A stretch of 64,000 nucleotides of DNA from NCBI RefSeq assembly GCF_017310035.1, contig NZ_CP022296.1, forward strand, positions 2,046,001 to 2,110,000, read 5' to 3'. The stretch's first letter is position 1. The number at the start of each line of letters is the position of its first letter. This document shows positions 4,040 to 27,949 of the stretch, one piece after another. Below the pieces are notes generated by a model, which had not been told where the DNA came from, made no database searches, and worked only from the letters and a program-made list of their open reading frames with translations. The position numbers were made by a program, and so were the translations under genes. The DNA is from Nocardioides sp. S5. GTDB lineage: Bacteria; Actinomycetota; Actinomycetes; Propionibacteriales; Nocardioidaceae.

Positions 4040-7000
4040 ATGCGGGTGGGTGGCAGCATCGGCTCGCTCGTGACGTTCGAGGGCGCCCCCGGCATTGGTC
4101 GCGTCACGGCCGTCGAGGGTGGCGCTGCATGCGTCACGTTCTTCGAATCGCCCGTCGAGGTCGAAGTAGAATTGGCTTGGGTCGACCTTGGTCTTCTGCG
4201 CGGAGTGACTCTCGACGAACAGACGCGTGTCTTCGTGCCGACGGTCGATGGCCGCTGGCGTGCCGGTCGGGTCGTGGGTGGGCGCGCGCCTGAGTATTTT
4301 GTCCGGTTCCCCAACGTCCACTACGACGTCGAGGTTCCCGAGGCGAGTCTTCGAGTCCGCTGGGACCGACCCACGAAAGACCCTGTCCAGGTGTTGCTGG
4401 CCGGCGCCAATGAGACTCCGCGATTTCGGGACGCGCGCCAGCCTGTCCGCAATCTCCTGCTGGCCGAGCGGGCGGCGTCGATGTCCGCAACCGGACTCGC
4501 CTCGGCTGGTGTCGGCATCCACGAGCACCAAGTGAACGCGGCCCTCCGCATCATCAATGACCCGATTCAGAGGTACCTTCTCGCCGATGAGGTCGGGATG
4601 GGCAAGACGATTCAGGCCGGCTTCGTTGTTCGGCAGTTGCTGATCGATGACCCATCCCGTCGCGTCGGTTTCATCGTTCCAGAAGCACTTCGCGAGCAAT
4701 GGCAAGCCGAACTGTTGGACAAGTTCTACCTCGATGACTTCGCGAGATCGGATGGCCGACTTCCCTTCGCCATTCGCGGCCATCACGAGGTCGATGAGTG
4801 GAACAAGTTTCAGAGCGCTGACCTGCTTGTGATTGACGAGGCGCATCAGTTGGCCCGTGCCGAGTCCCCAGACGACCAGCCATACCGCCAACTGACAGCG
4901 GTCGCCCACGCGGTTCCACGCCTCCTCCTGCTCTCCGCGACCCCGTTCTCCCAGAGGACGACGAGTCACCTCGCGTTGCTGCATTTGCTGGATCCGGCAC
5001 TCTTCAAGTGGAGCGAGTTGGACGGCTTTGAACGCCTCCTCGGAACGCGCCGAGAGCTCGCTATGGCCGTGTTCGGACTCGACGAAGAGCCTGATCCGGA
5101 GAACCCCGAGCTGCTGGCGTATCAGTTCGATGCCCTTCGTCGGTTGCTGCCCGCAGACGAACTCCTGTCGGCTGGGATGGCCACGGCGATGGCGGCCTTC
5201 GGAGAGAGCGACATCGCCGACCCGATCGATCTGAAGCGTGCCGTCGCAGCGGTACGTGCGCACGTGTCGGAGACCTATCGCTTGCATCACCGGGTCATTC
5301 GAAACCGGCGCCACGTCGTGGAGCAACAGAGGCTCGACGACGAGGGCAACATGGCCCCGTTCGAGTTCACGGGTCGCGAACGTCCAAAGGTCATCCGGCT
5401 GGATTCCGCTGAAGGTGACGCGGCGGTCCATGCGGTCGAGACGTGGCTTCGGATGATCAGTGCCGATGTCGCGGATCGCGAGATGGACCCCGCACCGTAC
5501 GCCCGGGCCGCAAGCGTGCTCGTCTCTCGTTTGGGCGCAGGGACCCGTGACGATGTCGTTGCGGCGCTTGAAGCGCGACTTCTTCGGTCGAGCGCACCCG
5601 GCGTGACAGAGCCAGAGCTTCAGCGCCTGACCGAAGCTGAGGTACGTCCGTTCGAGCAGCGCGTCCTAGAAGACCTCCAAGAGGCCTCTGAGCGCGACGG
5701 TAGTGATGAACTCGCCGGTGCAATTGTCAAGCGCGTCAAGCCGGGTCAGCGTGCCGTGGTGTTCTGTGGTCCGGGTGCGCTTGCGGGTCAAGTAGCAGCG
5801 GCGTTGCGCGCCCTGTCTGCTCCGCTCGGCCCAGTGCATGAACATCTAGTCAGTTCCGTGACTGGTTCCCGCCAGGATGCTGTGCTGGCGTGGCGTGAGA
5901 AGGGTGGAGTCCTCGTCGCTGATCAGAGCGGCGATGTGGGTCGCAATTTTCAGCAAGCCGAGATCGTGATTCACGCTCGTTTGCCCTGGGGGCCGAACGA
6001 ATTCGAGCAGCGGATTGGTCGCGTCGACCGTTACGGCAGTGGGCGACCCGCGGCGCAGTACGTCGTATCTGACCTTGACCCGGATGGTCTCCACACCACG
6101 TGGTTGCGAGTTCTCGGGACTGGCTTTGGTATCTTCGAAGAGTCGATCTCGGCCATGCAGGAGATCGCCGACAGCCTCGCAGATGCGTTTTGGAACAACC
6201 TGCTCGTGGAGGGACGTGACTATGCCCTCGACAAGATGGCTGACATCGGGGCAGCTCTAGCTGCTGAACGCCGACGGATCAACGAACTCGATGCCCTCGA
6301 GTCGAGTTACGGAGGGGGAGAGGGTGAGGCCCTTGCCAAGAACATCTCGTCCTTCGACTCACGGCACGAGCAGATCGAGCGGGCCTACCTGAAACTCATC
6401 ACCGGCGCCGAAGGCTTCATGCTGTCGAATAGACGCCAGAGCGACGGAAGCATTCGGTTCGATCGCGATCCGCATCAGGCGCCACTGGTCAGCCCGCGAT
6501 TGCTCGCCCGAGTCGTCACGCGACCAGAATCGCGTACCGGGTACTTCGATCGATGGCAGTTGACTGCCGGCCGTCGAATGTTCCGACGTGGCAACCCGTT
6601 TATCGACGGAATCGAGTCCGTTCTGGCGATTGACGACCGTGGTCAGGCCAGCGCTCAGTGGCGACTTGATCATGGCTGGCCGCATGACCCACTCGTGTAC
6701 TTTGGATACGACTTTCTCATCGAAGCGAATCTCGCCCCAGTCCTGGACGCGATCGGCCAAGGGCAAGACGGACTTGCGGTCGCTAGGCGTCGCGGAGATG
6801 TCGCGCTGGCTCCTGTGTTCCGGAGGATCTGGATCGCCGTCAATGACATGGCCCCGGTGGAGGACGACGGGGTCATTGCGTATCTCAATCAGCCCGTGAT
6901 GAAGGGCCGCGACGTCAACCTGAATGCATCCAGGATTGCCGCCTTGCATGGAGTTCTTGGGGGCGACGGAGTTCTCCAGACAGTCGGACCCGAGGGGTAT

Positions 7001-7270
7001 GCGATCGCGCGCGATCACCTGGGCAGAAAGGCAGACCTAGCTCGGGTGACAAAGCGGGCCGCAGCGACCGTTTCAGAGAGGACGGACTTGCTCGTCGCCC
7101 AGACGAAGGCTCGACAAGTGGCCGCCGGGATGGTCGCCGATCCGGGCGCCTGGAGCCGTGAAATCGCGATTGGCCGTGCTTTGGAGGACGGCGTCTCCGC
7201 ACCAAGCGTCCGCATGACGGCGGTGACGTGCTTGGTGCGCTCGGCCCAGTCGTGGAGCGAGTATGTCTAG
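4040..7270 (+). CDS. dpdE: DpdE, SNF2-like helicase of the 7-deazaguanine DNA system
   Basis: A 1076-residue SNF2/RapA-type ATPase. The N-terminal ~130 residues look like small beta-rich (SH3/tudor-like) segments with repeated V-x-F and V-x-V patterns. The helicase core has Walker A inside DEVGMGKT (~183-190), DEAH (~266-269), LLLLSATPFSQ (~297) and motif VI QRIGRVDRYGSGR (~657). In Dpd clusters the SNF2 protein DpdE is in the set dispensable for inserting the base and thought to act in restriction. It is first of eight overlapping genes, and its stop overlaps the dpdF start by 8 nt. The call rests on domain type plus cluster position. Taken alone it would be a generic DEAD/SNF2 helicase like DISARM DrmD. 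Confidence 0.85.
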   Translation: MRVGGSIGSLVTFEGAPGIGRVTAVEGGAACVTFFESPVEVEVELAWVDLGLLRGVTLDEQTRVFVPTVDGRWRAGRVVGGRAPEYFVRFPNVHYDVEVPEASLRVRWDRPTKDPVQVLLAGANETPRFRDARQPVRNLLLAERAASMSATGLASAGVGIHEHQVNAALRIINDPIQRYLLADEVGMGKTIQAGFVVRQLLIDDPSRRVGFIVPEALREQWQAELLDKFYLDDFARSDGRLPFAIRGHHEVDEWNKFQSADLLVIDEAHQLARAESPDDQPYRQLTAVAHAVPRLLLLSATPFSQRTTSHLALLHLLDPALFKWSELDGFERLLGTRRELAMAVFGLDEEPDPENPELLAYQFDALRRLLPADELLSAGMATAMAAFGESDIADPIDLKRAVAAVRAHVSETYRLHHRVIRNRRHVVEQQRLDDEGNMAPFEFTGRERPKVIRLDSAEGDAAVHAVETWLRMISADVADREMDPAPYARAASVLVSRLGAGTRDDVVAALEARLLRSSAPGVTEPELQRLTEAEVRPFEQRVLEDLQEASERDGSDELAGAIVKRVKPGQRAVVFCGPGALAGQVAAALRALSAPLGPVHEHLVSSVTGSRQDAVLAWREKGGVLVADQSGDVGRNFQQAEIVIHARLPWGPNEFEQRIGRVDRYGSGRPAAQYVVSDLDPDGLHTTWLRVLGTGFGIFEESISAMQEIADSLADAFWNNLLVEGRDYALDKMADIGAALAAERRRINELDALESSYGGGEGEALAKNISSFDSRHEQIERAYLKLITGAEGFMLSNRRQSDGSIRFDRDPHQAPLVSPRLLARVVTRPESRTGYFDRWQLTAGRRMFRRGNPFIDGIESVLAIDDRGQASAQWRLDHGWPHDPLVYFGYDFLIEANLAPVLDAIGQGQDGLAVARRRGDVALAPVFRRIWIAVNDMAPVEDDGVIAYLNQPVMKGRDVNLNASRIAALHGVLGGDGVLQTVGPEGYAIARDHLGRKADLARVTKRAAATVSERTDLLVAQTKARQVAAGMVADPGAWSREIAIGRALEDGVSAPSVRMTAVTCLVRSAQSWSEYV

Positions 7271-9815
7271 AGACGATCTCGGCGCCGCCGCGATTGCCCT
7301 CGGCGTCTGGCCGAATGCTCCGTACATCGACGATGAGCCCAGAATCATCTCCGATGCGTGCAGTCGCCTGCTCGACGCGCTGGCAGCCCTAACGAGTGGT
7401 GCCGCAGGCTGGCGCGATGTCGCAACGTTGGTACGGCAGGTTCTCGTGACCGCGGCGGCCACGTACGGGTCGCGTCCATCACTGATCGTGCCTGTCGGTG
7501 ATGTCTGGCCTACAGCGGAACAGTGGCGCGAGCTGAACTGCGTTCCAAGTAGCCTTGCCGACGGGCGCTTCAGCATCCGCGCCCTCAACTGGGCGCCGGA
7601 TCCTCCGACCGCCGGCGACGCAGAGTCAGTCGCCCAGGAGCAGGTTCTCGCAGCCTTTCGTGATGCAGACCCGGTTTTTGCATCGGTCCGAGCTGACCCG
7701 TTCTGGCCAAAGGCCCACGGCGCGGACTTCAAGGTCTACCGCGGGGAGACTCAGCGTCAAGCCGCGCGCGCAGCGGTGCTGAGCCGTGACGAAACACTGA
7801 TGGTTGCCCTACCGACAGGACGTGGCAAGACTGCCGTGGCTTGGTCCAAGACGATGCTCAGCGCCTCTGGCGTCACAGTGGTCGTTGTACCGACGATTGT
7901 GCTTGCCCTGGACTTGGAACGACGCACCCAGGAGTTGGCGCGAACTCGCAACCTCAACTTGAGCCCACTCAATCGTTTTGCCTACGTCGGCTCGCTAGAT
8001 TCGACAACCAAAGAATCGCTTCGTGCTGCCATTCGTGCGGGCACCCAACGACTCCTCTACACAAGCCCGGAAGCCTTCGTGAGTGGGCTCGCTCCGGCGA
8101 TTCTCGACTGCGCAAGCAGAGGGCTACTCCAGCAGATCGTCATCGACGAAGCTCATCTGATCGACCAGTGGGGCACGGACTTTCGTCCCGAGTTTCAGAC
8201 GATGCCCGGCCTCGTCGCCGAAGCTCGCGACCTCGCCCCGGAAGGTTCCCGTCCTTCAGTCCTGCTCCTTAGCGCGACGCTGGGCCAACGCTCAGTCGAC
8301 GTCCTGCAGCGCTTGTTCGGCACAGAGGACTCGGAGTTCGTGTGGGGCACTGAACTGCGTGCCGAACCGGCGATCTTTGTCGACCGGGCAGACACCGAGG
8401 CCACGCGCCGCCGCGCCATCTTGAATGCGGTGGATGCACTTCCAAAGCCGCTGATTCTGTACACGACACGTGTCCGGGACGCGCAGGAATGGGTCACCCT
8501 CCTCAAAGCCGCGGGCTATCGCCGGGTAGCCGGCATCACAGGCGCGTCGACGGAGCACGAACGAGCCGAGGTCGTGGAGTCCGTGCGAGGTGTTCGGTAC
8601 GACGGCCGTCGTACCGCGACCACGGTCGACGTCGTCGTGGGCACCTCAGCATTCGGGCTCGGGCTGGACCTTCCGAACGTGCGTAGCGTCCTACATGCAT
8701 GCGTGCCCGAAACCATTGACAGGTACTACCAGGAAGTTGGTCGAGGCGGCCGAGACGGACGGCCCACGGTTGCCTACCTGTGCGAGGCCCCGGGAGACCG
8801 CGACGTCGCCAAGCGCTTGAACTCGGCGGTTCTCATCGGCGATGAGAAAGGCTGGAGTCGGTGGCAAGACCTTCTCCGCCAAGGCAAAAACGTCTCCGGC
8901 CTGAGGTATCGGGTCAACAGGAGTGTCGTCCCTGCGTACCTCCCCGAGGGGTTCAACGAGAGCGCACAGTGGAACGTTCGCACTCTTACGCTCATGGCAC
9001 AGGCAGGGGCGATTCGATTCCAGGTTCCACGCTGGAACGATGGCGGCATCGACGGCGAGACTGATCGCGACACGTTCTATGAGTCGGTGCAGGACCTCCT
9101 CGAGTTCGAGTTGACAAATGGGGAGCTCCTCAACCACTCCGGTTGGACGGGAGCCACGGAGCGACTTCGGTCCGAACTTCGGTCCTCCCAAGAACTCGCG
9201 CTGCGGGCGATGCTTGACGTGGTGGACGGCCATCGCTGTGTCGGACGGATTCTGGCCAGTCACTACCGCGTCCGGTATCGCGGTGGCTTGCTCTCGACAG
9301 CACCACGATGCCGAGGATGCCCGCACTGCCGGACGAACCCTGACACCGCGCCCGGCCTGAATGCGCCCGAACCAAGCCCGACACTCCCGAGAGTCGGGAC
9401 GCCGACGGACCCCTTGCAAGCGTGGCGCGGAGGATCGCCCTCGGCTTTCGTTTGGTACGGGGCCGGCGAACGACCCGACGCCATCCTCACGCGGTTGGCT
9501 CAGCGCGGGCTGCGACTGTTCGCGGGTCTGTCGATCCAAGAGGCCGATGCCCTCCAGCGAAGTGTGCCAACGTGTCCCGTGATCTTGGATGACCCTGAAT
9601 CGGTCGTTCCGCTCATGCTGAGCCATCCGGATCCTCTTGTCGTCGCCGTTGCTGATGGGACCGTGCCGCTTGATTTGCGAGAAAGGCTGGACCTTGGTTT
9701 GGTCACTTACGTGGTCGGGCCCCAGTCCACAATGAGCGATGTCAAACCAGGTTGGACGCTGGCGGACACCGCTGACGTGAGTATTCGAGCGAGCGCGCTC
9801 ATGACGGAGTTGTAG
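7263..9815 (+). CDS. dpdF: DpdF, RecQ-like ATP-dependent helicase
   Basis: An 850-residue protein. After ~165 residues without a recognised domain it has a RecQ-type core: PTGRGKT (~184), IDEAHLIDQWG (~295), LLLSATL (~335), GLGLDLPNVRSV (~466) and GRGGRDGR (~494). Downstream, C-x23-C-x2-C-x2-C at ~659-688 matches the RecQ C-terminal zinc site, apart from a longer first spacer (16 in classical RecQ). The last ~130 residues show no known motif. The ATG overlaps the end of dpdE, implying coupled translation. In the Dpd system this family belongs with the helicases of the restriction arm. The substrate is unknown; unwinding of DNA lacking the modification is an inference. Confidence 0.87.
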   Translation: MSRDDLGAAAIALGVWPNAPYIDDEPRIISDACSRLLDALAALTSGAAGWRDVATLVRQVLVTAAATYGSRPSLIVPVGDVWPTAEQWRELNCVPSSLADGRFSIRALNWAPDPPTAGDAESVAQEQVLAAFRDADPVFASVRADPFWPKAHGADFKVYRGETQRQAARAAVLSRDETLMVALPTGRGKTAVAWSKTMLSASGVTVVVVPTIVLALDLERRTQELARTRNLNLSPLNRFAYVGSLDSTTKESLRAAIRAGTQRLLYTSPEAFVSGLAPAILDCASRGLLQQIVIDEAHLIDQWGTDFRPEFQTMPGLVAEARDLAPEGSRPSVLLLSATLGQRSVDVLQRLFGTEDSEFVWGTELRAEPAIFVDRADTEATRRRAILNAVDALPKPLILYTTRVRDAQEWVTLLKAAGYRRVAGITGASTEHERAEVVESVRGVRYDGRRTATTVDVVVGTSAFGLGLDLPNVRSVLHACVPETIDRYYQEVGRGGRDGRPTVAYLCEAPGDRDVAKRLNSAVLIGDEKGWSRWQDLLRQGKNVSGLRYRVNRSVVPAYLPEGFNESAQWNVRTLTLMAQAGAIRFQVPRWNDGGIDGETDRDTFYESVQDLLEFELTNGELLNHSGWTGATERLRSELRSSQELALRAMLDVVDGHRCVGRILASHYRVRYRGGLLSTAPRCRGCPHCRTNPDTAPGLNAPEPSPTLPRVGTPTDPLQAWRGGSPSAFVWYGAGERPDAILTRLAQRGLRLFAGLSIQEADALQRSVPTCPVILDDPESVVPLMLSHPDPLVVAVADGTVPLDLRERLDLGLVTYVVGPQSTMSDVKPGWTLADTADVSIRASALMTEL

Positions 9816-10685
9816 ATGAAGGTTCTTGACCCGGGTCAGGGAGTCGTACTCCCGCAGGCCATGTGGCTCTGCTACTCGACGATCGCCAAGGCCTCCGGCC
9901 TCGCCGCCGAGGAGGTCTTCAGCCTTGTCCTGCCGCAGGAGTTGCGATCGCAGGCGCCGTCGGATGGGGCGCATGCCAAGCAGGCCCTGTCTGCGCTGGT
10001 TGAGTTCGGGCTCGTGTCCTCGGACGATGGCCTGCTTAGCGCTGAAACATTGGACGCTGCGGGATTCCTACGCCGACTGCGCTACCAGGTAGTACGCCCC
10101 CCAGCGGACGTGTCTGAGTCCTTCGACGGGGCATCGGACCTTCGTTCAGGACTTATCTGGTTGATGACACAAAGCCCCTTGGTGCCGCTGCACTGGAAGA
10201 GCAACGTGCAGGTGGCCATGCCGCCTGGTCTGTTCACAAACGACACGCGATGGAACAACTTCCCCACGTGGGCAACAACGCTTGGCTTCGCCCGCCCCGC
10301 GCTTCGGGCCCTTGTGCCGGCAGATGCAGCCAACAGGGCACACCTGGTGGCAGATCCGACAGAGGCGATTCTCGATGTCATCGCACACCCGTCCTCCGAA
10401 CGACTGCCCACTGGCGTCCAGATTCCGGTGGCGTCCTTCATGGCCTTCTTGAGACGAGAGCTCCCTGTTCTGCCGGGCCACCCCTCAGCGACCTATGAGG
10501 GAATAGAGAGCGATCCTCAGGATCAGCTTGCGGCCGTCGGACTGGCTCTCAACAGCGCCGAGGCGCGAGGTGTTCTCACAATGGGTTACCAGTCGGACCC
10601 GACCGGCGTTTTGGCCCTGCCGGACAGCGGGCGGAAGGCAGGCGCCAGGTACGTCTCAACCATTCAGATTGAGGCAGGCAAGTGA
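9816..10685 (+). CDS. dpdG: DpdG, Dpd system protein of unknown biochemical role
   Basis: A 289-residue soluble-looking protein. The ATG directly abuts the dpdF stop codon, and its TGA is overlapped by the next start (GTGA). I see no catalytic motif. The N-terminus (~15-85: LCYSTIAKASGLAAEEV, then a short basic stretch) could be a winged-helix-like region, a guess from helix patterning. It is assigned as DpdG because it lies between the RecQ-like DpdF and the large ATPase DpdH, in the order the gene names reflect, and has a plausible length. It is probably a structural or adaptor subunit working with DpdH. Confidence 0.75.
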   Translation: MKVLDPGQGVVLPQAMWLCYSTIAKASGLAAEEVFSLVLPQELRSQAPSDGAHAKQALSALVEFGLVSSDDGLLSAETLDAAGFLRRLRYQVVRPPADVSESFDGASDLRSGLIWLMTQSPLVPLHWKSNVQVAMPPGLFTNDTRWNNFPTWATTLGFARPALRALVPADAANRAHLVADPTEAILDVIAHPSSERLPTGVQIPVASFMAFLRRELPVLPGHPSATYEGIESDPQDQLAAVGLALNSAEARGVLTMGYQSDPTGVLALPDSGRKAGARYVSTIQIEAGK

Positions 10686-13678
10686 GCACTCTTCCGATTG
10701 GCTTCACCTGTTGGCAGGCAGAGTCGGTTGCTGCCACCATCCCAACGGAGGCGGCAACCCCCTCCGATCAGGTCCTGCTGGCAACCCACTCGCCGCTGCG
10801 CATCCGGCGCGAAGGTGCGACGACTCAAAAGCAAGCCGAATTCGTCTCCGAGCACGATGTCGTGAGGGAGTTCCTGACCTCGACGCCGAACGCCGGCGTG
10901 CTGATTGCGCCTGTTCTCGGCGAGTCCGGGGCCGGCAAGTCGCACCTCGTACGGTGGGCCAACGCAAACATTCCCCGCGTCGGGGGTCGGCACGTCATCT
11001 ACCTGCAGAAGACGCAGACCAGCCTTCGGGACGTTGTCGAGCAACTCCTGAGCGGCAAGACCGGGCCAGCCTTCGACGAGATTCGTCGGCAGGTTTCGGG
11101 TCTCGGCACTGCTATCTCCATCGAGGAGATGGAACGAAAGATCCTGGCCGAGCTCGCTGAAGCGCTTCGCTCACGCGAGCCCCAGGGGTTTCTCGACAAG
11201 CCACTGGTCGGGGAGCGAGGACTAGCCCTGCTCTTCCTTGACCCACTCTTCCGAGAGCACCTGCTGCGTCCCGGGTCATTCATCAACAGACGTGCGGTAC
11301 ACGCGCTCAACGGTCGTGATCCCGATGAGCCTGATGTCCCGCTGGAGTTCACGGTTGACGAACTTCCGCTGGACATCACCGACGTCGCCAATCTGGCCGA
11401 CGCATCGAGGGCTGCTCAGAACCTGTTCAAGCAGGTCGTAGTCAACACAGACATGCAACTTGAGGCCGTCAGGATTCTGAACGACTCCCTCGACCTCGCA
11501 GTCATGAAGGCCGCCAATCTGGGTGTCGGGAACGTCAACCGAGCCTTTATGAAGCTCCGTGAAGAGTTGGTCGGCGAAGAGATCGTGCTCCTGATCGAGG
11601 ACGTCGCGCTGATCCAGGGTGTCAGACGCGACCTACTGGACGCGATTCACGAGTCCAGCATTGTTCAGGGGCAGGAGAAGTACGCGACGGTGCGGACGCT
11701 CCTTGCGGTTACACCGTCGTACTACAGAGAGAACCTGCCCGAGACGTTTCGAACTCGCGCAGAGGCAAGTTCGCCGAGTTACGTCGTTGACGTGCAGATT
11801 GACGGCGCCAAGACGAACGACGCGGACCTTGTCGACTTCGTTGGTCGCTACCTGAACGCGGCTCGGCTCGGTAAAGATGTCCTTGAGGCAGAGATGTCTG
11901 CTAACAAGGCCGCTCCCAACGCCTGTGACGCCTGCCCGTTCAGCGACTCCTGCCACAGCACTTTCGGTACTTCCGAGGCCGGGCACGGTCTGTACCCCTA
12001 CAACGAACCCGCGGTGCTGCGCGCGGTGCGCGCATGCGTCGACCCGGACAACCCGCAACTCTTCAGCCCGCGGCGGGTCCTTGCCGGTGCTGTACGCGAG
12101 GTACTGATGGATGCCGCCGGGCAGTTGCCCCGTGGTGACTTTCCGCCGGGCCGACTCCTGGGCGAGCGAACTCGAACTGCCGGCCTTCCAGCGCTTCCAC
12201 TCGCTGTTCGTCAGCGTCTGGAAGAGGACTACCCGAAGGACTTGGCGCCGCGGCTTGAGTCCATGCTCGCCTTCTGGGGGAAGGCCGGTACGCGGCCCAT
12301 CCCAGACGCGGTCTTCACGACGTTTGGTCTTGACCCGATCGCCTCGGGCGATGGTTCGGATCTAGTCGAGGAGCCTGAGTCGACGGGCCGCGACGAGGCT
12401 GCGCGTCGGGCCACGGCGGACGGGTTGCCGAAATCCGTCCAGCGGCAACTCGAGGCTATCGAGGAATGGTCGGCAAAGGACAAGACGCTTCCTCAGGACA
12501 TGGCGCGCGTCATCCGCTCCCTGGTCCGCGAGGCCGTCCTCGCCCGCGTTGAGTGGTTCGATCCGGTCATTAAGTCTCCGGATACCGAAACCATCAAGCG
12601 AGCCGTGCCGGACAACGCGCGAAGCATCTCGATCGAAGGCGCGCAGGAAGGAATCGGTCAAGGCGTCGAACCGATTGTGCGGCTTAAGCGGACTGCCCGA
12701 AATGCGGTGCTACTTCAAGGCTTGATCCTGATCCAGTCCGGCTTTGCAGACCTCTCAGGAGATGCACTCGCGCGGCTCGACGCCTTGGCGGTGGGTGCAG
12801 TGCCCGCAGCCCGGGCGCGCATCCTCGCTGCAATGGAATACGACGAAGTTGCGATGGTCGCAGCCGCGCGTTCCCTCATCATTGGCGCACTTGCGTGCGG
12901 CCACATTGCATCGACGGCCCGTGATGTCGACCTAATTCGCGCGGTGGCGTGGCGCGGCGACATGGCCCGCGAGGACGTCGCCAGTCGTCACCCCCAGTGG
13001 GCCGACAGCCATCGGGGATACATGGCAGAGCGGGGCGCAGCCGTTGAGCGTTTCCTCGGTGGCATCGGCGCGGCACAGGGTGCCGGAGGCGTGCACGCGC
13101 TCGACAGCGTGCGCCTCACGAAGCTGGTGAAGGCCGCCAGATCCCAACTCGACGAACTTCCAACCTCGGTTCCCACTTGGTGCGCGGACGCCAACCGCAA
13201 ACTCAGCATCCTGGTTCAGGTCGCGCCCGCCCAGATCTCTTACTGGTCGGACCTCGTTCGGCGTGTGCGGCGATTGCTTCCGGAATCCGAGTCATACATC
13301 GACACCGTTGACGCCGTTGTACTCGCTGCGCGCGAAGGCCAGGCCCAAGGCCTCGTCAAGGTCAAGGACCTTCCGGCGCTGGAGCAGGCGAATGAGGCCG
13401 CGCGCAGACTGGACGCACGAGGGTTGACCGAGGTCGAGAAGGCGCTTGCCGGTGCTACGGGCCAGGACGGGGTGGCCCTGGCGCGTCACCTCGGTCCATC
13501 AGTCGGGAGAGATCTGAAGCTCATCGCCGAGTATCTGGAAGAGACAGAACGCTGGGTCGAGTCCGGAATCAGCGACGCGGAGATTGATCCGGGCGCCAAG
13601 ATCGATATCGACGAAGCAATCGACGGCCAAGTAACGCGCTGGCTGAACATCCTCTCGAACGGGGCAGAAAATGACTGA
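10682..13678 (+). CDS. dpdH: DpdH, large P-loop ATPase with cysteine cluster
   Basis: A 998-residue protein starting at a GTG that overlaps the dpdG stop. The N-terminal third holds a P-loop, GESGAGKS (~80-87), and a later acidic strand, IVLLIEDVALIQG (~302), which may be the Walker B element of an AAA/STAND-like ATPase. Cysteines at ~415, 418, 424 and 452 (C-x2-C-x5-C-x27-C) look like a zinc or Fe-S site. The C-terminal half is mostly helical with long charged stretches. The stop overlaps dpdI by 8 nt. DpdH is among the conserved Dpd accessory proteins attributed to restriction; its exact action is not established. The family call rests on P-loop, size and position. Confidence 0.82.
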   Translation: MSTLPIGFTCWQAESVAATIPTEAATPSDQVLLATHSPLRIRREGATTQKQAEFVSEHDVVREFLTSTPNAGVLIAPVLGESGAGKSHLVRWANANIPRVGGRHVIYLQKTQTSLRDVVEQLLSGKTGPAFDEIRRQVSGLGTAISIEEMERKILAELAEALRSREPQGFLDKPLVGERGLALLFLDPLFREHLLRPGSFINRRAVHALNGRDPDEPDVPLEFTVDELPLDITDVANLADASRAAQNLFKQVVVNTDMQLEAVRILNDSLDLAVMKAANLGVGNVNRAFMKLREELVGEEIVLLIEDVALIQGVRRDLLDAIHESSIVQGQEKYATVRTLLAVTPSYYRENLPETFRTRAEASSPSYVVDVQIDGAKTNDADLVDFVGRYLNAARLGKDVLEAEMSANKAAPNACDACPFSDSCHSTFGTSEAGHGLYPYNEPAVLRAVRACVDPDNPQLFSPRRVLAGAVREVLMDAAGQLPRGDFPPGRLLGERTRTAGLPALPLAVRQRLEEDYPKDLAPRLESMLAFWGKAGTRPIPDAVFTTFGLDPIASGDGSDLVEEPESTGRDEAARRATADGLPKSVQRQLEAIEEWSAKDKTLPQDMARVIRSLVREAVLARVEWFDPVIKSPDTETIKRAVPDNARSISIEGAQEGIGQGVEPIVRLKRTARNAVLLQGLILIQSGFADLSGDALARLDALAVGAVPAARARILAAMEYDEVAMVAAARSLIIGALACGHIASTARDVDLIRAVAWRGDMAREDVASRHPQWADSHRGYMAERGAAVERFLGGIGAAQGAGGVHALDSVRLTKLVKAARSQLDELPTSVPTWCADANRKLSILVQVAPAQISYWSDLVRRVRRLLPESESYIDTVDAVVLAAREGQAQGLVKVKDLPALEQANEAARRLDARGLTEVEKALAGATGQDGVALARHLGPSVGRDLKLIAEYLEETERWVESGISDAEIDPGAKIDIDEAIDGQVTRWLNILSNGAEND

Positions 13679-18733: not shown

Positions 18734-19248
18734 CGGATCGGCTTCAGCGGACCGTGCGGACTCGGCCTCGAAACGGGCTGGCCATCGCCGACGTACTGGC
18801 GGGTGTCTTCGCATCCGAGTTGTGTTCACCAAGCCCAGAGCTGTGGCTGGTGAGCGGATGGGTCAGCGATGTCATGGTCCTCGATAACTCTTCGCGCCAG
18901 TTCGACGGCCTGATCGGGCACGATGCGGGTTCGAGTCTGACTCTGTCTGACGTCCTTCGCATCTTGGTATTGAAGGGAACCGACGTGCACGTGGCCCTCC
19001 GCGACGTCGACCACAACCACGACTTCCTCAGGCGACTCGGAAGCGAGCCAAGAATCCACACGTACCTGAGTGCGGATCTGCACGAGAAGATCCTGGTCGG
19101 CTGGGACTGGACGCTAAAGGGCTCCATGAACTTCACATGGAATGGCCTGCAGCGAAACGAGGAAAGCATCGATCTGCAGGTGGGACCCACTGTCGCTTCG
19201 ACTCAGCGACTGGAGTTGCGAACTCGCTGGCTTGGCGGCGGCGAATGA
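18730..19248 (+). CDS. dpdK: DpdK, phospholipase D-like putative nuclease
   Basis: A 172-residue single-domain PLD-family protein. The signature is H-x-K at ~118-120 followed by GSMNFTWNG (~132), the usual HKD half-site plus GS-N-F-T strand. The conserved Asp sits one residue further from the Lys than in the classical H-x-K-x4-D spacing (five residues between). A single half-site implies an active dimer, as in bacterial Nuc-type enzymes. The start chosen is ATG 18730, which overlaps the dpdJ stop in ATGA; the longer open frame upstream has no support. DpdK is the best candidate for the DNA-cutting subunit, but cleavage is inferred from the family. Confidence 0.87.
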   Translation: MTDRLQRTVRTRPRNGLAIADVLAGVFASELCSPSPELWLVSGWVSDVMVLDNSSRQFDGLIGHDAGSSLTLSDVLRILVLKGTDVHVALRDVDHNHDFLRRLGSEPRIHTYLSADLHEKILVGWDWTLKGSMNFTWNGLQRNEESIDLQVGPTVASTQRLELRTRWLGGGE

Positions 19249-21230: not shown

Positions 21231-21233
21231 ACC

Positions 21234-22340
21234 TCACTTCTTGAGGGCGCGGAGCAGGTGGCTTGTGAGGACCTTGACGTCGTTTGGAGTGTTCTGGATA
21301 CCGTTCCATCGACGAACCTGCTCCTCGCCGAAGTCCCACGTGCCGCTGGTCCACGCACAGTGCTCGCCGAGGCGTCCCAGCGTCTTCTCGAGGTTCATAC
21401 CCGCGAGTTCTGCCGTTGGCACCCCATCGGTCAGCGCGTCCATCACGTAACCCATGGCCTGAATGCCGGCACCGTGCGTAAGCCGCGACTTGGTGGGCGC
21501 GAGATCCCAGGCCTCGGGGAACGCCAACTGCACAATCGTCCAGAAGTAGTTCAGATGGAGGACCATTTGGTCGACGTCGCCGGTGCCATCGTCGGGATTG
21601 CGATACTGGTACAGCGCTCCGTCGTAGAGGCTGTTTTCGATCATCTTGAGGACGCTGTTGTCCTTGATGTAACCCTCCGCCATTGTCGGCGTGGCGATGC
21701 GCCCGGCGAACGGCGCGCCCGCGGCCCGGTTTCCGAAGTTGAGTCGTGCTAGGACCTCGGCGGGGAGTTGCTTACGGGCGTATGCGGTGGGGAGGTGACC
21801 CATCGTGTCAGGAAGCAATTCGTGGATCAGACCCTTCGGCAGGGGCTTGGTGTTATTCACCAGGATGAACTGGCTGCGCTGCTCGGCCTCGCCACGCGCG
21901 ATGAAGGCAACCGCGGCGACCCCAAACTCTGCGAGGTCTGCGTCGCGGATCGCGGCGCTTCGCTGCTGGCCGTCTACCAGCCAGGCCGGCTTCTGGTCTT
22001 CGGGCAGTGACTCGTCGATGGGAATCACGAGTTCGCCAGCCGTCACGTAGTCGACTTGGCTCACCATGCCCGAGGCCTCGAAGTTGACGCGCTCGTCGAA
22101 CGCAACGACGACGGCGTTCGGCAGCATCGCGCCGTCCGACTCCAAGTAGCGCCGGATGGCCTTAATGTGGCTCAAGACCTCCGGGCGTTGGTAGCCCTGC
22201 AGGGTGACATCGTCGCGGTGAACCCGACTGACGGTTGCGAAATCGTGGATGCGCTTGCCGTCCACGCCGAACGTGTAGATGAACTGTGGACCCTGCCTGA
22301 TTCGCAGAGCGGGCAGTCGCAGTTCGTAGCGGTCAGCCAT
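21234..22340 (-). CDS. dpdB: DpdB-like DGQHR-domain protein, copy 1
   Basis: A 368-residue member of the DGQHR/DndB-like family (ParB-related fold). The signature reads DGQQR at 123-127, with Gln where the family name has His. It shares GYQRPE (~49), a HGxGIxAMG segment, HCAW and a NxxQNTP end motif with the 379-residue-class protein encoded at 23559-24695, so the two are clear paralogues. In Salmonella, DpdB works with DpdA to insert preQ0 into DNA. It is last in the minus-strand operon, and its ATG overlaps the dpdA stop by 8 nt. Which paralogue is the functional DpdB cannot be told by eye; they may form a heteromer. Confidence 0.82.
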   Translation of the reverse strand: MADRYELRLPALRIRQGPQFIYTFGVDGKRIHDFATVSRVHRDDVTLQGYQRPEVLSHIKAIRRYLESDGAMLPNAVVVAFDERVNFEASGMVSQVDYVTAGELVIPIDESLPEDQKPAWLVDGQQRSAAIRDADLAEFGVAAVAFIARGEAEQRSQFILVNNTKPLPKGLIHELLPDTMGHLPTAYARKQLPAEVLARLNFGNRAAGAPFAGRIATPTMAEGYIKDNSVLKMIENSLYDGALYQYRNPDDGTGDVDQMVLHLNYFWTIVQLAFPEAWDLAPTKSRLTHGAGIQAMGYVMDALTDGVPTAELAGMNLEKTLGRLGEHCAWTSGTWDFGEEQVRRWNGIQNTPNDVKVLTSHLLRALKK

Positions 22341-23562
22341 TGGTACTCCTGTGAGACTTCAGTTGCGCCATCTTCGTGGCGAGTACGGACATGTTGTGGA
22401 AACCGCGACGCTTGTTGCGTTCAGTCCCACGAAAGATCGCAATCTCGACACCATGGTCACGGCAGATCTTGCAAGAGCAGCGCGTCCACGGCGCGGCGGC
22501 GAGGGTCTCCTCGTATGCATCGCGGTACGACTTCTTGGTCCTGCAGACGAGGCTGTACTCCTCGAGTCGGTCGAGGCACGCCCTACGGGACGCGGCAGAT
22601 CCGTCGTAGGCCCGAAGCGCCTTGAGCGTCTCACGCTCGGCACTGATCGCCTCCGTCTGACTCACGTGCCCGGCAAGGATGGCGCGCTTCAGCGTGGGGT
22701 TGCCGTCGACCTGCGGAACGCGAATCGCAACGTAGGCGCGGTCCGGCGTGTGAAAGTTCTTGCGGTCGTCCATGAAGGCCTGGCGAAACGCTGAGGTGCT
22801 GTCGAAACTGGTCACGCCGAGGGCCGCGAAGTCATCCATGGACTCGACTCGCGTGATGCCGAGAAGATGCAGATGCGTGTCGCTCTTCAACACGCCACCG
22901 ATCTCATCCAGGCTAGCCAGAATCTCCCGGGTCTTGAGCGGCACCATGCCTCCGAGAGCGATGCGCTGGTAGCCCATGTCCTGGAGGGCTCGCACGCTGT
23001 CAGCGTAGGTCGCCGGGCTCCATCCTTGGGCCGCGCCCACAGGTTCGACCTCACTGGCGCGGTCGCGGCATAGCGACATGAACTCTTCGGCAAGTCGGAG
23101 CGTCAGCCTGCGTCGGGCTTCCCAGTCGGGATTGGCGTCTTCTCCATCGGTGCTTTCGGTGAACCCAAAAACCACATGGTCGGTGCTGACGCCAGCATCG
23201 AATCCGCACTCTTCGTAGAAGCTGAGGGTCTGCGCTGGGGTGACCGGGGGAGTCGGTTCGTCGATGTAGTTGAACGCGCCGTTGTCGCCTAAAGCCTCTA
23301 CACCGGGTGGGAGCCGGAAGAACTTGTGAACCCCCATCCGATGCATCCTGGCGCGTTGGGCGGTGGTGTACTTGCCAGCTCCCTTGATGGATCCGTCCAC
23401 GATGGACTTGCTGACCAAGATGCCGTGGTAGGGCGCATGGTCGAGAACCTCGTGCGCGTACCGGTCGTCGCGCTGACGGACGCGGTGCGCCGGGTACTCG
23501 TCGCGCATGAAGTCGTAGGCCGGGCTGACCAGATCTTGGCTGTCGGGGAAGAAGAACTTCAC
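22333..23562 (-). CDS. dpdA: DpdA, DNA 7-deazaguanine transglycosylase (TGT-like)
   Basis: A 409-residue enzyme expected to swap guanine in DNA for preQ0, using the base-exchange chemistry of tRNA-guanine transglycosylase. TGT hallmarks are visible: GDNGAF with Asp93 (general acid/base position), FDSTSAFR with Asp254 (nucleophile position), LGGMVPL (~203, binding loop region) and a C-terminal zinc site C-x-C-x2-C at ~362-367 with His at ~388. Start GTG 23562 overlaps the stop of the preceding gene (GTGA) and opens KFFFPDSQD; the longer frame upstream lies inside that gene and is rejected. Its place between two DGQHR genes and beside queC-E-D identifies it as the DNA enzyme and not tRNA TGT. 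Confidence 0.93.
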   Translation of the reverse strand: MKFFFPDSQDLVSPAYDFMRDEYPAHRVRQRDDRYAHEVLDHAPYHGILVSKSIVDGSIKGAGKYTTAQRARMHRMGVHKFFRLPPGVEALGDNGAFNYIDEPTPPVTPAQTLSFYEECGFDAGVSTDHVVFGFTESTDGEDANPDWEARRRLTLRLAEEFMSLCRDRASEVEPVGAAQGWSPATYADSVRALQDMGYQRIALGGMVPLKTREILASLDEIGGVLKSDTHLHLLGITRVESMDDFAALGVTSFDSTSAFRQAFMDDRKNFHTPDRAYVAIRVPQVDGNPTLKRAILAGHVSQTEAISAERETLKALRAYDGSAASRRACLDRLEEYSLVCRTKKSYRDAYEETLAAAPWTRCSCKICRDHGVEIAIFRGTERNKRRGFHNMSVLATKMAQLKSHRSTNG

Positions 23563-24695
23563 TTGCGCTGGGTCCGTTCCGCGAGGTAGGTCCGCACAAG
23601 GAAGTTGGAGAGTGCGCTGATGTGACGGGGGGTGTTCTGCAGGTCGTTCCACGCAAGCCCGAGCGCTTCCCAGGCCCCCTCGGTCCATGCGCAGTGACTG
23701 ACGATGAGGGTGAGTTCCTCCGCGGCAACCGCCCTGGCGTTGGGATCGTCGTCGCGGACGTGCGTCATGACCCGGTCCATTAGCCGACCCATCGCTCTGA
23801 TCCCTACGCCGTGCATCAGGCGACTTTCAGTTGCGGGTTTCGCCCAGGCGTCGTGGAAGACATCGTGAACGGCTCCCCAGTAGGCGATCAGCGCGCGCCG
23901 GATGCCTTCCGTGTCGGTGGTACCGGTGGCGATGTTGCGATACGGGAAGAGGACGCCAGAGGGCGACTCGATGGATTCGCGGATCGCTTCGATCAGGCTG
24001 GTGTCGGTGACGAACGTCGACTTCTTGTCGTCGGGAGCTGTGGACGCTCGCCGGATGATTCCTTGGAACGGCGACTCGCTGTCCTGGTTCAGCATGTCAA
24101 CGAGGGCGGATGGGAGTTGTCGCGTGGCCATGCGGGCCGACGGCACCCGAGCAATCTCAGGCAGGAGTTCCGTGACCAGACCGGTAGGTAGGGGTTGCAC
24201 GGTGTTCACCCGTAGGAACTGCTCGCGCTGCAGTTCCAGTGTCGGTGCGACGAACCCGGCTACAGGGACAGGAAGCCGGCGGTTCTTGGTCCGCGCGAGC
24301 GCCAAGCTGCGTTGCTGGCCATCGACGATCCAGGCAGGACGCGGACCGTCAACGTCTAGTGCGATCGGAATCTCTAGTGTTCCAGACACAGCAAGACCGT
24401 CGCTGGTTGATGGACCGCGACTTGACTTCCACCGGACCTCGGGCGGAAGTGCAAGAATCAACCCGTTCGGGAACAAGGGGTCTTCCGAGTCCAGATACTC
24501 CTGAATTTGCTTCACGTGTTTCTGCTTCTCTGGCCGCTGGTAGCCAATTAACTTCCCAGCCTCGTCGCGACCGATCCGAGCAACGTCGGCAACGAGGTCG
24601 ATCTCTTCGGCAGCAAGGGTGAATAGGTACAGCGGCATGTCTCCACCTTGGAGCACCTTCAGTGCTCGCCGCTCTAGCCACTCCATCTCACTCAT
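23559..24695 (-). CDS. dpdB: DpdB-like DGQHR-domain protein, copy 2
   Basis: A 378-residue DGQHR/DndB-like protein with DGQQR at 125-129, GYQRPE at ~51, SRLMHGVGIRAMG and a NDLQNTP motif near the C-terminus. It is the paralogue of the protein encoded at 21234-22340 and lies on the other side of dpdA. The stop overlaps the dpdA start (GTGA), and its own ATG overlaps the stop of the dpdC-like gene (ATGA), so all four are probably translated as a unit. By place immediately before dpdA it is an equally good candidate for the true DpdB, the ATP-dependent partner of the transglycosylase. Confidence 0.82.
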   Translation of the reverse strand: MSEMEWLERRALKVLQGGDMPLYLFTLAAEEIDLVADVARIGRDEAGKLIGYQRPEKQKHVKQIQEYLDSEDPLFPNGLILALPPEVRWKSSRGPSTSDGLAVSGTLEIPIALDVDGPRPAWIVDGQQRSLALARTKNRRLPVPVAGFVAPTLELQREQFLRVNTVQPLPTGLVTELLPEIARVPSARMATRQLPSALVDMLNQDSESPFQGIIRRASTAPDDKKSTFVTDTSLIEAIRESIESPSGVLFPYRNIATGTTDTEGIRRALIAYWGAVHDVFHDAWAKPATESRLMHGVGIRAMGRLMDRVMTHVRDDDPNARAVAAEELTLIVSHCAWTEGAWEALGLAWNDLQNTPRHISALSNFLVRTYLAERTQRK

Positions 24696-25561
24696 GCTGT
24701 GAACGCTTCCTCAAATAGTCCGGAGAACCTGCGCTGCTCGCACGCGATGCCGGATGCACGCAGTTCTTTCAGCGCAACGGTTTTCGACAGGCGTGGGCGC
24801 TGTGCGCGCATGTCGCGAATCAGTACGCGGATGGTGTCGTCCGAGACAGGACGACGGTCGTACCGCTCGACCTGGCTCGCGTCCTGAGCCCAGTCGGCCC
24901 AGGCTTGACGCACCGCGTCCGAACTCACGCACTTGCCGTCGGCCAGTTCCAGCCATCGGATGGCCATCCGGGTGTTCAGGCTAGACACGGTGCCGCCGAG
25001 CGCTGCACGCAGATTCCGGTTGGAGGCCACGCGCACGGTGGCTGGCGTGTTTGAGGCTCCTCCGATCACCACTGTGGTTTCAGGGTCGAGGGATCGCAAA
25101 CGCGGCGACATGGCTGATGCATAGGTCTCGGACAGAACCCAGATCGCCGGGCGGCTCAAGGCGGGTTCGCTGCCGTGAGGGAGGAGATCCCACCAAGCCC
25201 TCGCATCGCTATTCCGCGTGGCGACCGAGTCTGACTGACGTCGAGCAAAGGTCGCCGCGTAACTGGGGGCACTGTCGTCCACCCTGCGCAGGCCGAGGCC
25301 CGCGGATGCAACGAAAACGTCAGGTTCCCATCCAGTGCGCTGAGCCGTTGCTGCCAAGCGCTTCGCCTGAGTCCAGGTTTCGCCCTTGTAGAGATCGAGC
25401 AGGCGGCCGACCGGCGGTTCGGCTTCCAAGCGTGCACGCCACTCCGCTGCCCTCTCGCCGACGGTGCCGGCGGGCAGGGTGCTGGCCCTCAGGGTCTCAG
25501 CCGGTGCGACCGCCTTCCGGTCTGTGCACGTGACCACGATCGTCAGTTTTCGGTGCGACAT
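24692..25561 (-). CDS. dpdC: DpdC-like protein (YaaA/DUF6884-like), probable preQ0-in-DNA tailoring enzyme
   Basis: A 289-residue protein. Start ATG 25561 opens [16 protein letters not shown]; upstream in-frame sequence is arginine-rich noise in the divergent promoter region. The N-terminal half resembles the YaaA/DUF6884 pattern: a hydrophobic strand followed by CTDRK, then [10 protein letters not shown] (~61) and FVASAGLGL (~84) with a following P-x-Y-x-A-T-F. The C-terminus is helical, ending in a possible helix-turn-helix (~235-285). DpdC converts inserted preQ0 to the amide form (dADG) in Salmonella. First place in the dpdA operon supports the name, but the family link is from pattern memory only. 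Confidence 0.62.
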
Positions 25562-25663
25562 GACCCCTCGATGGTGAAACTGCAGTTCGGTTCCGGCTAC
25601 TCTACATCGCAGTTTCCGGGTTCGGAGCTCACATGGCCGGCGCGTAGTGGAGAGGTGGAGATA
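25562..25663. promoter_or_regulatory. divergent dpdC / queC promoter region with inverted repeat
   Basis: These 102 nt separate the divergent modification operon (minus) and preQ0 operon (plus). A perfect 8-bp inverted repeat, GAAACTGC at 25576-25583 and GCAGTTTC at 25609-25616, brackets a loop holding CTACTCTAC (25597-25605). That loop contains -10-like hexamers on both strands (TACTCT plus, TAGAGT minus). This geometry suits one operator controlling both operons. AGAGG at 25651-25655 lies 8 nt before the queC ATG. No regulator gene is visible nearby. Confidence 0.45.
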
Positions 25664-26362
25664 ATGGGCCGTAAGGCGGTAGTGCTGCTCAGCGGGGGTC
25701 TGGACTCGACGACGGTCCTGGCTGTCGCGAAGGACCAGGGCTTCGAGCCGTACGCAATCAGCTTCCGCTACGGCCAGCGGCACGTAGTCGAACTTGAGTC
25801 TGCTCGCCGGGTTGCTGCTGGAGCAGGCGCCGCGGGGCACGTGGTTTGTGACGTCGACCTCCGCGTCTTTGGCGGTTCGGCGCTCACCGCCGACGTAGAC
25901 GTGCCAAAGCACGAGTCGGCGGATGAGTTGTCGGATAGCGAGATCCCGATCACGTATGTCCCGGCGCGTAACACCGTGTTCCTGTCATTCGCACTCGCGT
26001 ACGCCGAGGTCATCGGCTCGACGGACATCTTCATCGGTGTCAGCGCGCTGGACTACTCGGGGTATCCGGACTGCCGCCCGGAGTACATCGCGGCCTATGA
26101 GCAGATGGCGAACCTGGCGACCCGAGCGGGCGTGGAAGGCAACGCAGTCAATATCCACACGCCGCTCATCAATCTGACGAAGGCGCAGACGGTCGAACTT
26201 GGGACGCGCCTCGGCGTCGACTACTCGCTCACACTGTCGTGCTACGACCCCGACGCGGAGGGGCGCGCATGTGGTCACTGCGACTCATGCCTCCTGCGAC
26301 TGCGCGGGTTCGCGGACGCGGGCCTCGCCGATCCAGTCCGCTACAAGGAGGCGACTGAGTGA
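25664..26362 (+). CDS. queC: QueC, 7-cyano-7-deazaguanine (preQ0) synthase
   Basis: A 232-residue enzyme that makes preQ0 from 7-carboxy-7-deazaguanine, ammonia and ATP. The PP-loop motif LSGGLDSTT is at ~9-17, and the C-terminal zinc site runs C...C-x2-C-x2-C (from [17 protein letters not shown], ~194-210). Start ATG 25664 is chosen because it gives the standard [12 protein letters not shown] opening and has an AGAGG site; the open frame upstream is promoter region. It is the first gene of queC-queE-queD-VUT, sharing GTGA with queE. In this setting preQ0 is destined for DNA, through DpdA, not for tRNA queuosine. Confidence 0.95.
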
Positions 26363-26994
26363 CGTACAAAGTTAAGGAGATCTTCTACACGCTGCAGGGG
26401 GAGGGCACCCACGCCGGTCGACCGGCCGTGTTCTGCCGCTTCAGTTCGTGCAACTTGTGGACCGGTAGGGAAGTCGACCGCGCGCGTGCGGTCTGCAAGT
26501 TCTGCGACACAGACTTCGTCGGAACTGACGGTGAGGGCGGAGGCAAGTTCGCGGACGCCCAGGCGCTTGCCGACGCGATCGCCGCGAAGTGGCCTGTCGA
26601 TGGCGGCGGCCGCCCGATGGTCGTCTGCACCGGCGGTGAACCTCTCCTTCAGTTGGATGCGCCGGCCGTGGATGCGCTCCACGAACTTGGCTTCTACGTC
26701 GCAGTCGAGACGAACGGGACGATCGCCCCGCCTCAGGGCATCGACTGGCTCTGCGTGAGTCCCAAGGTCGGATCGGAACTCATCGTCGAGAAGGGTCACG
26801 AACTCAAGTTCGTGATCCCCCAGGGTGGCGTCGACCCAACCACCTTTGAGCACCTTGAGTTCGAGAGCTTTCGCGTTCAGCCGATGGACGGCCCCGACGT
26901 TGCCGCAAACACGGAACTGGCCGTGAAGTTCTGCCTTGACCACCCCCTCTGGCAGCTCAGCCTGCAGACCCATAAGCACCTAGGAATTCCGTGA
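26359..26994 (+). CDS. queE: QueE, 7-carboxy-7-deazaguanine synthase (radical SAM)
   Basis: A 211-residue radical SAM enzyme that contracts the ring of 6-carboxy-tetrahydropterin to 7-carboxy-7-deazaguanine. [13 protein letters not shown] (~11-23) is the typical opening. The cluster-binding cysteines at 31, 46 and 49 give C-x14-C-x2-C in place of the classical C-x3-C-x2-C, a variant known in a QueE subgroup. A GGEP-type CTGGEPLLQ lies near 90. GTG start overlaps queC, and the stop overlaps queD, both as GTGA. Confidence 0.94.
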
Positions 26995-27365
26995 GCTACG
27001 AATCTGAGATCTACCGCGAGTTCACCTTTGAGGCTGCGCATCGACTGCCTCACGTGCCCGAAGGGCACAAGTGCGCTCGGCTGCACGGCCACTCATACCT
27101 CGCCGCCGTCCACGTCTCCGGGCCGGTGGGGGAGCAGACCGGCTGGGTCCAGGACTTCGGCGACATCAAGGCCGCATTCAAGCCGCTCGAGGACCAACTC
27201 GATCACCATTACCTCAACGATGTAGCCGGCCTCGACAACCCGACTAGCGAGGTCCTTGCCAAGTGGATCTGGGATCGGCTCGTCCCGGAACTTCCAAACC
27301 TCAAGGAGGTACGGGTCCGCGAGACTTGCACCTCCGGATGCATCTACCGCGGAGTGGAACAGTGA
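26991..27365 (+). CDS. queD: QueD, 6-carboxy-5,6,7,8-tetrahydropterin synthase
   Basis: A 124-residue enzyme of the 6-pyruvoyl-tetrahydropterin synthase fold, making 6-carboxytetrahydropterin from dihydroneopterin triphosphate. Zinc ligands are His17 (AAHRLP) and His32/His34 (LHGHSY), and the catalytic Cys28 lies in [16 protein letters not shown] and the C-terminal [13 protein letters not shown] stretch also fit. GTG starts inside the queE stop, and its own stop is shared with the transporter start. The GTP cyclohydrolase (FolE) that feeds this step is not in the window, so it must come from elsewhere in the genome. Confidence 0.94.
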
Positions 27366-27949
27366 CTGCGCAACTGGAACGCGAACCACTAACGGCAGGT
27401 GCTGAGCGGTCGAGGCTCGCCCTCAGCGTGGCTCTCGTCGCCTACGTCGCGGCTGTTGTCCTGGCCAATATCGTGACGGAGCGGCTCGGGCTCGTGTCTG
27501 TTGGCTTTGGGCTGCTCGTAACGGCAGGTACGTACGCCGCTGGCTTTGCACTCCTGGCGCGCGACTTCGTCCACCGATTCGGCAGCCGAGGCTGGGCCAT
27601 CGCCGCTATCGCACTCGGCGGGGCTATCTCGTGGGCGCTCTCATCGCCCGCCCTTGCGGTCGCCTCGACGGTCGCGTTCGTGAGCGCCGAACTGGTCGAC
27701 TTGGTCGTCTATGAGCCGATCAGGCGCGCGAAGGGGTTCATTCAGGGAGCCCTCGTTTCCAACATCGTCTCGGCGCCGATCGACACGTTCGTCTTCCTGT
27801 CGCTTGCGGGCTTCCCTTTGACGCTGGAGACGGTCGGCGGTCAGTTCATCGGCAAGGTTTTGTGGGCGACAGCCATTCCTCTGTCGCTCTACTGGCTGGG
27901 ACGTCGCTGGTTGACGTCCCGCAGATCACGCGACCAGACGACCGGGTGA
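27362..27949 (+). CDS. VUT/YhhQ-family transporter, probable preQ0/7-deazaguanine precursor importer
   Basis: A 195-residue membrane protein with about five or six hydrophobic segments (from ~21 on: [15 protein letters not shown], then ~43-60, ~78-100, ~105-120, ~138-158 and ~165-185). The [17 protein letters not shown] and [14 protein letters not shown] segments match the COG1738 (DUF165) family, whose E. coli member YhhQ imports preQ0 and preQ1. The GTG at 27362 overlaps the queD stop, so it belongs to the preQ0 operon; the longer frame upstream is queD read out of frame. Its presence suggests salvage of precursors alongside de novo synthesis. Substrate is inferred from family and operon. 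Confidence 0.85.

Follow-up and report, generated by a model that had tools for sequence, protein, structure and literature searches.

What does the large set of dpd genes in Nocardioides sp. S5 do, and does the nuclease gene pair next to it take part? The DNA analysed is a window of 64,000 nt (NZ_CP022296.1, 2,046,001–2,110,000, forward strand; coordinates below are positions in this window unless they are called genomic). The best explanation, which we hold to be reasonably probable, is a Dpd system of 7-deazaguanine modification and restriction, carried on an element resembling an integrative and conjugative element (ICE), with its own genes for preQ0 supply and a linked pair encoding an HNH nuclease and a DGQHR protein. 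The Dpd set itself is of an already known kind: the accessible part of a 2025 preprint (PMC11888242) counts 2,335 unique Dpd windows, to which actinobacteria contribute 333, and 801 extra copies of dpdB; its figures for YhhQ and QueD are about 9% and 78%. The accessory pair would be the new element, and its mechanism is plausible by analogy.

The dpd genes and the supply of preQ0

The window proteins were scanned against Pfam, PADLOC and NCBIfam, and bit scores were read against curated cut-offs. A preliminary description, made from the sequence, had placed a Dpd gene set at 4040–27949 and proposed searches with Dpd profiles; these were run, and the set is real, with DpdA, two DpdB proteins, DpdD, DpdE, DpdF, DpdH, DpdJ, DpdK, QueC, QueE and QueD above their cut-offs. 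Its statement that all roles appear stands for most families and fails in part, since DpdI is identified only from its position, DpdG stays below its cut-off and the que operon lacks a GTP cyclohydrolase.

The restriction genes lie on the plus strand in the order E-F-G-H-(I)-J-K-D: dpdE, an SNF2-type helicase (4040–7270; NCBIfam DpdE 1046 bits, cut-off 500); dpdF, a RecQ-like helicase (7263–9815; 721 bits, cut-off 550); the probable dpdG (9816–10685; 67.5 bits, cut-off 80, supplemented by its position); dpdH, an AAA-type ATPase (10682–13678; 815 bits, cut-off 450); a gene for a 224-aa protein in the dpdI slot (13671–14345); dpdJ, a helicase (14342–18733; 1482 bits, cut-off 800); dpdK, a phospholipase-D-like protein (18730–19248; 163 bits, cut-off 100); and dpdD (19245–21230; 524 bits, cut-off 300). 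The modification genes, C-B-A-B, converge on them from the minus strand across a 3-nt gap: dpdC (24692–25561; no match in the NCBIfam scan, PADLOC DpdC E-value 1.5e-99 in a library without curated cut-off), the upstream dpdB paralogue B1 (23559–24695; NCBIfam DpdB 398 bits, cut-off 300), dpdA (22333–23562; NCBIfam DpdA 584 bits, cut-off 200) and the downstream dpdB paralogue B2, with a DGQQR motif (21234–22340; 511 bits, cut-off 300). The supply operon diverges from dpdC, 102 nt away, on the plus strand, and comprises queC (25664–26362; TIGR00364, 205 bits, cut-off 150), queE of the Cx14CxxC type (26359–26994; TIGR04508, 337 bits, cut-off 240), queD (26991–27365; TIGR03367, 108 bits, cut-off 89) and a probable preQ0 transporter of the YhhQ/VUT type (27362–27949; Pfam Vut_1 39.2 bits, cut-off 27.2; TIGR00697 36.7 bits, below its cut-off of 50.95).

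This layout, two convergent operons and a divergent supply operon, had been described correctly, as had the DpdB partners of dpdA and the DpdC-like protein. The overlaps claimed for nearly all junctions are also there: with start codons picked by conservation, neighbouring genes on one strand share 4 or 8 nt at 12 of the 13 junctions of the three operons, counted as far as the transporter, and dpdF and dpdG abut. The strict stoichiometry read into them does not follow, because overlaps of this size are ordinary translational coupling. Position 27949 is the end of the Vut_1/YhhQ-family transporter gene, which had been left unnamed; as an end of the whole unit it is unclear, with the HNH-DGQHR pair coming next. 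The Dpd genes look intact, because the profile matches span nearly the whole proteins. The product of the dpdI-slot gene matched no family in Pfam, PADLOC or NCBIfam scans; its identity to the same-slot products of three Nocardioides relatives is 92%, 73% and 35%, and to the unnamed protein whose gene separates dpdH from dpdJ on two plasmids of proteobacteria it is 17% and 24%. The slot is thus occupied in other loci too, and the name DpdI is given here by position only.

Could dpdA nevertheless encode a tRNA-guanine transglycosylase (TGT), so that the locus makes queuosine? Its match to the TGT family of Pfam in the window scan (27.5 bits, barely above the cut-off of 26.3) would agree with this. 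Among solved structures, the protein matches the "DNA-guanine transglycosylase" 7UI4 with an E-value of 3.4e-119 over residues 1–406 of 409 and a tRNA TGT with 0.71, so that the grouping with tRNA TGTs, which had been named beforehand as a refutation, is not what is found. The alignment with 7UI4 matches the Asp of GDNGAF, the Asp of SFDST and the CxCxxC...H zinc set, in agreement with the active-site Asp and zinc residues announced earlier; the assignment of catalytic residues among them follows general background on the family. The DpdA model score, far above its cut-off, and the failure to find QueA in a genome search that was positive in 9 of 14 control genomes argue in the same direction. 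A tRNA enzyme is therefore extremely improbable, and by its sequence DpdA is of the DNA type, distinct from the tRNA type. Among 394 genomes of the class, three have a DpdA match that exceeds the cut-off.

A search of the genome (a single contig of 4.75 Mb, 99.15% complete) with PF01702 returned only dpdA, there below the cut-off, and was positive in 14 of 14 control genomes. Because DpdA is the sole TGT-family match in the genome and QueA was not found, the preQ0 made here probably serves DNA; for the same reason deazaguanine should sit mainly in DNA, which would make this a clean test strain. No other user of preQ0 was found in the genome, in searches that covered the TGT family and QueA but not QueF, QueG, QueH or users in natural-product pathways. 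Since the que operon of the window contains no GTP cyclohydrolase, the host FolE (genomic position 575694) would have to serve preQ0 synthesis; in three related loci (our L037, L042 and L047, three proteins scanned) folE2 lies near queD. From the literature on these families, FolE together with QueD, QueE and QueC would make preQ0 and the transporter would salvage it, DpdA with the DpdB ATPases would replace guanine in DNA by preQ0, DpdC would convert dPreQ0 to dADG, and the DpdD–K proteins would act on DNA without the mark.

The linked HNH-DGQHR pair

Directly beyond the region of the preliminary description, a gene for an HNH nuclease (28002–28808, plus strand) overlaps by 1 nt a gene for a third DGQHR protein, hereafter B3 (28808–29947, plus strand). 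The HNH protein matches the Pfam families HNH_5 (40.2 bits) and HNH (32.8 bits), both above their cut-offs, as well as HNH_4; in an alignment of 93 rows four Cys residues, H158 and N172 are invariant and D157 and N181 nearly so, and its AlphaFold2 model has a predicted local distance difference test score (pLDDT) of 95.7. B3, with a ParB/Srx-like fold, belongs to the DGQHR family TIGR03187 (85.9 bits, cut-off 58.85) and has the DGQHR, QR and FxxxN motifs; in its alignment of 77 rows DGQHR, R57 and F152 are invariant and Q56 and N156 nearly so. The pair thus couples a protein of ParB/Srx fold, in which a DGQxR motif occurs, to an HNH protein with D/E-H-N-N residues. A Pfam scan found neither DUF262 nor DUF1524 in the pair, domains that SspE and DndI unite in a single protein, and the two proteins are encoded by separate genes, on which grounds the pair is, by sequence, outside the SspE, DndI and GmrSD families.

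B3 as a further DpdB was ruled out by its score against the DpdB model (68 bits, cut-off 300) and by its separate clade. In a tree of 60 rows B1 forms one clade that spans actinobacteria and alphaproteobacteria (support 99/98), the B3 type forms another (99/89) and B2 does not come out as one clade; the placement of distant B3 rows is unsure owing to long branches. Or perhaps B3 is a regulator or an extra insertion factor, in the manner of a third DpdB or of a DndB-like negative regulator, and the HNH gene is incidental? Besides the weak DpdB match, its only Pfam match, to the DndB family (26.8 bits, below the cut-off of 29.1), could be read in this way. The motif argues against it, being DGQHR in 8 of 8 rows of the B3 type and DGQQR in all rows of the B1 and B2 types, and so do the separate clade and the co-occurrence of B3 with HNH, which make such a role quite improbable.

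In other genomes, too, the pair occurs beside Dpd. B3 searches gave two matches in 396 genomes of the phylum (the host and the genome G476) and three in 395 genomes of the class of G476 (G476, G1053 and G1104), with no further genomes in two overlapping order samples of 172 genomes each. In all three genomes other than the host, found without any Dpd bait, the pair lies in a Dpd cluster: after dpdD in G476 and G1053, and between dpdB2 and queC in G1104, where the two matches are 39 nt apart. Within the 395 genomes DpdA was found in three, B3 in three and both in two (hypergeometric P 1.2e-4); DpdA was not found in G1053, though its contig has dpdG-H-J-K-D. Among 72,556 plasmids the HNH search matched two, from A. 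vitis and from Pseudomonas aeruginosa (ppae01). The A. vitis gene lies in a Dpd cluster after dpdD, separated from the DGQHR gene by an IS5 transposase gene; on ppae01 (L126:14208–21094) the HNH and DGQHR genes stand beside dndBCDE, 24 nt from dndE. The B3 search of plasmids returned four: these two, one of Azospirillum, whose B3 match adjoins its DpdA and may be its dpdB, and one of Bradyrhizobium. The last (L129:15707–17672) encodes a DGQHR-type protein and an unnamed neighbour, about 5–6 kb from dpd genes and without an annotated HNH. The P. aeruginosa DGQHR protein matches 20 plasmids, 15 of them from Providencia, at 21–28% identity outside itself; the neighbourhoods opened were those of ppae01, A. 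vitis and Bradyrhizobium.

More broadly, 29 of the 108 HNH homologues listed share the longest-contig size with the 120 B3 homologues listed (of 224), against a mean of 0.6 and a maximum of 4 in a jitter control. Dpd loci of actinobacteria or planctomycetes were examined in 21 cases, several with short flanks, and 5 of them have an orthologous pair; L037 has the pair and was found via DpdA, and is not counted as independent. In L036 (3020–5277) the slot between the transporter and glnA holds a pair of a distant DpdB-like protein (503 aa) and an HNH protein (302 aa).

Two other accounts of the pair have to be weighed against these data. It may consist of independent defence genes that merely share islands or mobile elements with a plain Dpd system and with Dnd. 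The absence of the pair from 16 of the 21 Dpd loci would fit this, as would the many other genes of the element, among them the recombinases and the kinase-helicase protein described below. Yet in 5 of 5 loci that were found without Dpd bait and have both HNH and DGQHR genes the pair adjoins a DNA modification system, in G1104 it lies inside the modification operon, and its position varies, so that the loci do not represent one inherited neighbourhood; mere sharing of elements is thus rather unlikely. Alternatively, the pair may be a type-IV-like enzyme that cuts foreign DNA with other modifications, much as GmrSD does with glucosylated DNA, and exempts self dADG. According to the available text of PMC4619093, GmrSD and BrxU combine a ParB/Srx NTPase with an HNH domain with E/D-H-N-N residues, in one gene or two, and BrxU, of the GmrSD family, aligns weakly with the B3 model over residues 29–374. 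We consider this distinctly unlikely, as the reading of a self mark accounts better for the occurrence of the pair beside two self-marking systems that differ in chemistry.

The reading that we prefer, by analogy, is that the HNH protein and its DGQHR partner are a split mark-reading nuclease akin to DndI, SspE and GmrSD, a second line beside DpdD–K; its prospects are close to evenly balanced. B3 would read the mark through NTP turnover, and HNH would nick DNA accordingly. Somewhat more tentatively, we propose that such pairs serve as a portable module, an effector that reads the marks of chemically different self-marking systems (7-deazaguanine of Dpd, phosphorothioate of Dnd), and that in Dpd they act as a restriction line independent of DpdD–K and as a split counterpart of DndI and SspE. 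If this is true, a two-protein effector would make mark reading in Dpd far easier to test than does the DpdD–K set.

The probable mobile element and related loci

The island setting suggested earlier is supported, as the Dpd set lies on a region of low G+C content: in 5-kb steps the value is 0.62–0.69 between genomic 1971 kb and the boundary at glnA (2076.5 kb) and 0.69–0.76 outside. The right end coincides with the stop codon of glnA, where a probable attachment arm (30430–30559, no strand assigned) contains two 13-mers (at 30490 and 30547) that recur together at genomic 1971072 and 1971109 (shared stretch 1971072–1971121), each occurring exactly twice in 244 kb. ICE hallmarks seen are Phage_integrase, TrwC and TraG-type genes and short repeats. 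A TrwC-type relaxase gene (42–3467, plus strand; Pfam TrwC 278 bits, cut-off 25) probably belongs to the same mobile element as Dpd. Three adjacent recombinase genes (L050:13286–17542, genomic 1979286–1983542) score 26.5, 42.9 and 62 bits against Phage_integrase (cut-off 27.1, the first just under it), and a fourth recombinase gene (82 bits) lies elsewhere on the element, which also has T2SSE/T2SSF genes and one for a TraG-type coupling protein. The Dpd locus is therefore probably on an ICE-like element at the 3' end of glnA. Its size of about 105 kb is an estimate, because a search for an empty site for the left end found none.

A glnA query matched all 59 same-genus genomes searched (G439 weakly), and in 10 of the other 58 genomes its alignment continues through the arm past the glnA stop (starting at query 123–151). 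Copies of the arm occur elsewhere in G429, G435, G419, G420 and G396, among others, and part of it recurs in the host genome at 3628141 with 79% identity. As arm sequence is shared and copied among genomes of the genus, the 3' end of glnA looks like an integration hotspot. In G401 a neighbour of glnA encodes a protein with 43% identity to one of the three adjacent recombinases or the fourth, and glnA itself is 97% identical to that of L036. Two further genes were noted on the side: one in the same element that joins a protein kinase domain to AAA_11/AAA_12 helicase domains (L004:13380–16829), perhaps another defence gene, and an open reading frame of 120 aa (3569–3931) between the relaxase gene and dpdE, with no Pfam match at E ≤1e-5.

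A DpdA scan of genome contigs gave 14 loci, from Nocardioides, Kribbella, Microbacterium, Agromyces, Nocardia and one planctomycete. The C-B-A-B arrangement is present in our locus as described, and is nothing peculiar to it: counting those of the 14 loci and the G loci that have both flanks of dpdA on the contig, dpdB stands on both sides in 18 of 19 actinobacterial loci, and also in 6 of 6 alphaproteobacterial plasmids opened (25 plasmid records have a DpdA match); an Enterobacter plasmid has a single dpdB. The actinobacterial exception, G1071, has dpdC-A-B2 without B1 (L123/L124), a natural single-dpdB locus.

Comparison of related loci with the window shows that the two halves of the system differ in their degree of conservation. 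In L036 the modification and supply half is 82–98% identical and the restriction half 27–39%, with no match to the DpdI-slot protein or to DpdG; in L040 the values are 77–90% (DpdC 48%) and 29–36%, with no DpdI match; in L037 they are 64–95% and 81–98%. L036, L040, L041 and L047 share the same picture (restriction half 27–41%, no DpdI match, modification half 75–98% with the exception of DpdC), and in every compared locus that has it, DpdC diverges more than B1, A or B2. From these differing identities between related loci we infer that the modification and restriction halves have been exchanged separately within one genus.

Comparison with known systems

The Dpd islands of Salmonella Montevideo and Kineococcus radiotolerans, as far as the accessible part of PMC11888242 describes them, are like the present locus in their core modification and restriction genes, in nearby preQ0 genes and a YhhQ-type transporter, and in their island setting. 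The locus of Nocardioides sp. S5 differs from them in the two diverged dpdB genes around dpdA (common to most actinobacterial and alphaproteobacterial loci seen), in the que operon without folE and in the linked HNH-DGQHR pair.

For the pair, the closest parallels in architecture are IscS-DndBCDE-DndI and SspABCD-SspE, in which a ParB-superfamily NTPase with a DGQxR motif is coupled to an HNH nickase. In the available portions of PMC11662687 and PMC9646914, DndI and SspE are described as a DGQQR NTPase of this superfamily joined to the nickase; DndI stands beside the larger DndFGH effector and leaves marked self DNA when its ATP hydrolysis is stimulated, and the mark activates SspE. The present pair differs in being two genes, in DGQHR instead of DGQQR, in having no DUF262 or DUF1524 match and in accompanying a 7-deazaguanine and not a phosphorothioate system. 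GmrSD differs in that it cuts modified DNA, and the sequence families of GmrSD and BrxU are other than those of the pair. A survey of Dnd systems (PMC10853773) names, in the portion available, winged helix-turn-helix (wHTH)-SAD-HNH nucleases and not an HNH-DGQHR pair. A close counterpart is the pair of P. aeruginosa ppae01 (NZ_CP133095.1), which has the same gene order (HNH 28%, DGQHR 37% identity) and adjoins phosphorothioate genes, not Dpd. The presence of the pair suggests that alternative effectors exist for Dpd as they do for the phosphorothioate systems, and that a single nuclease module may work with chemically different marks.

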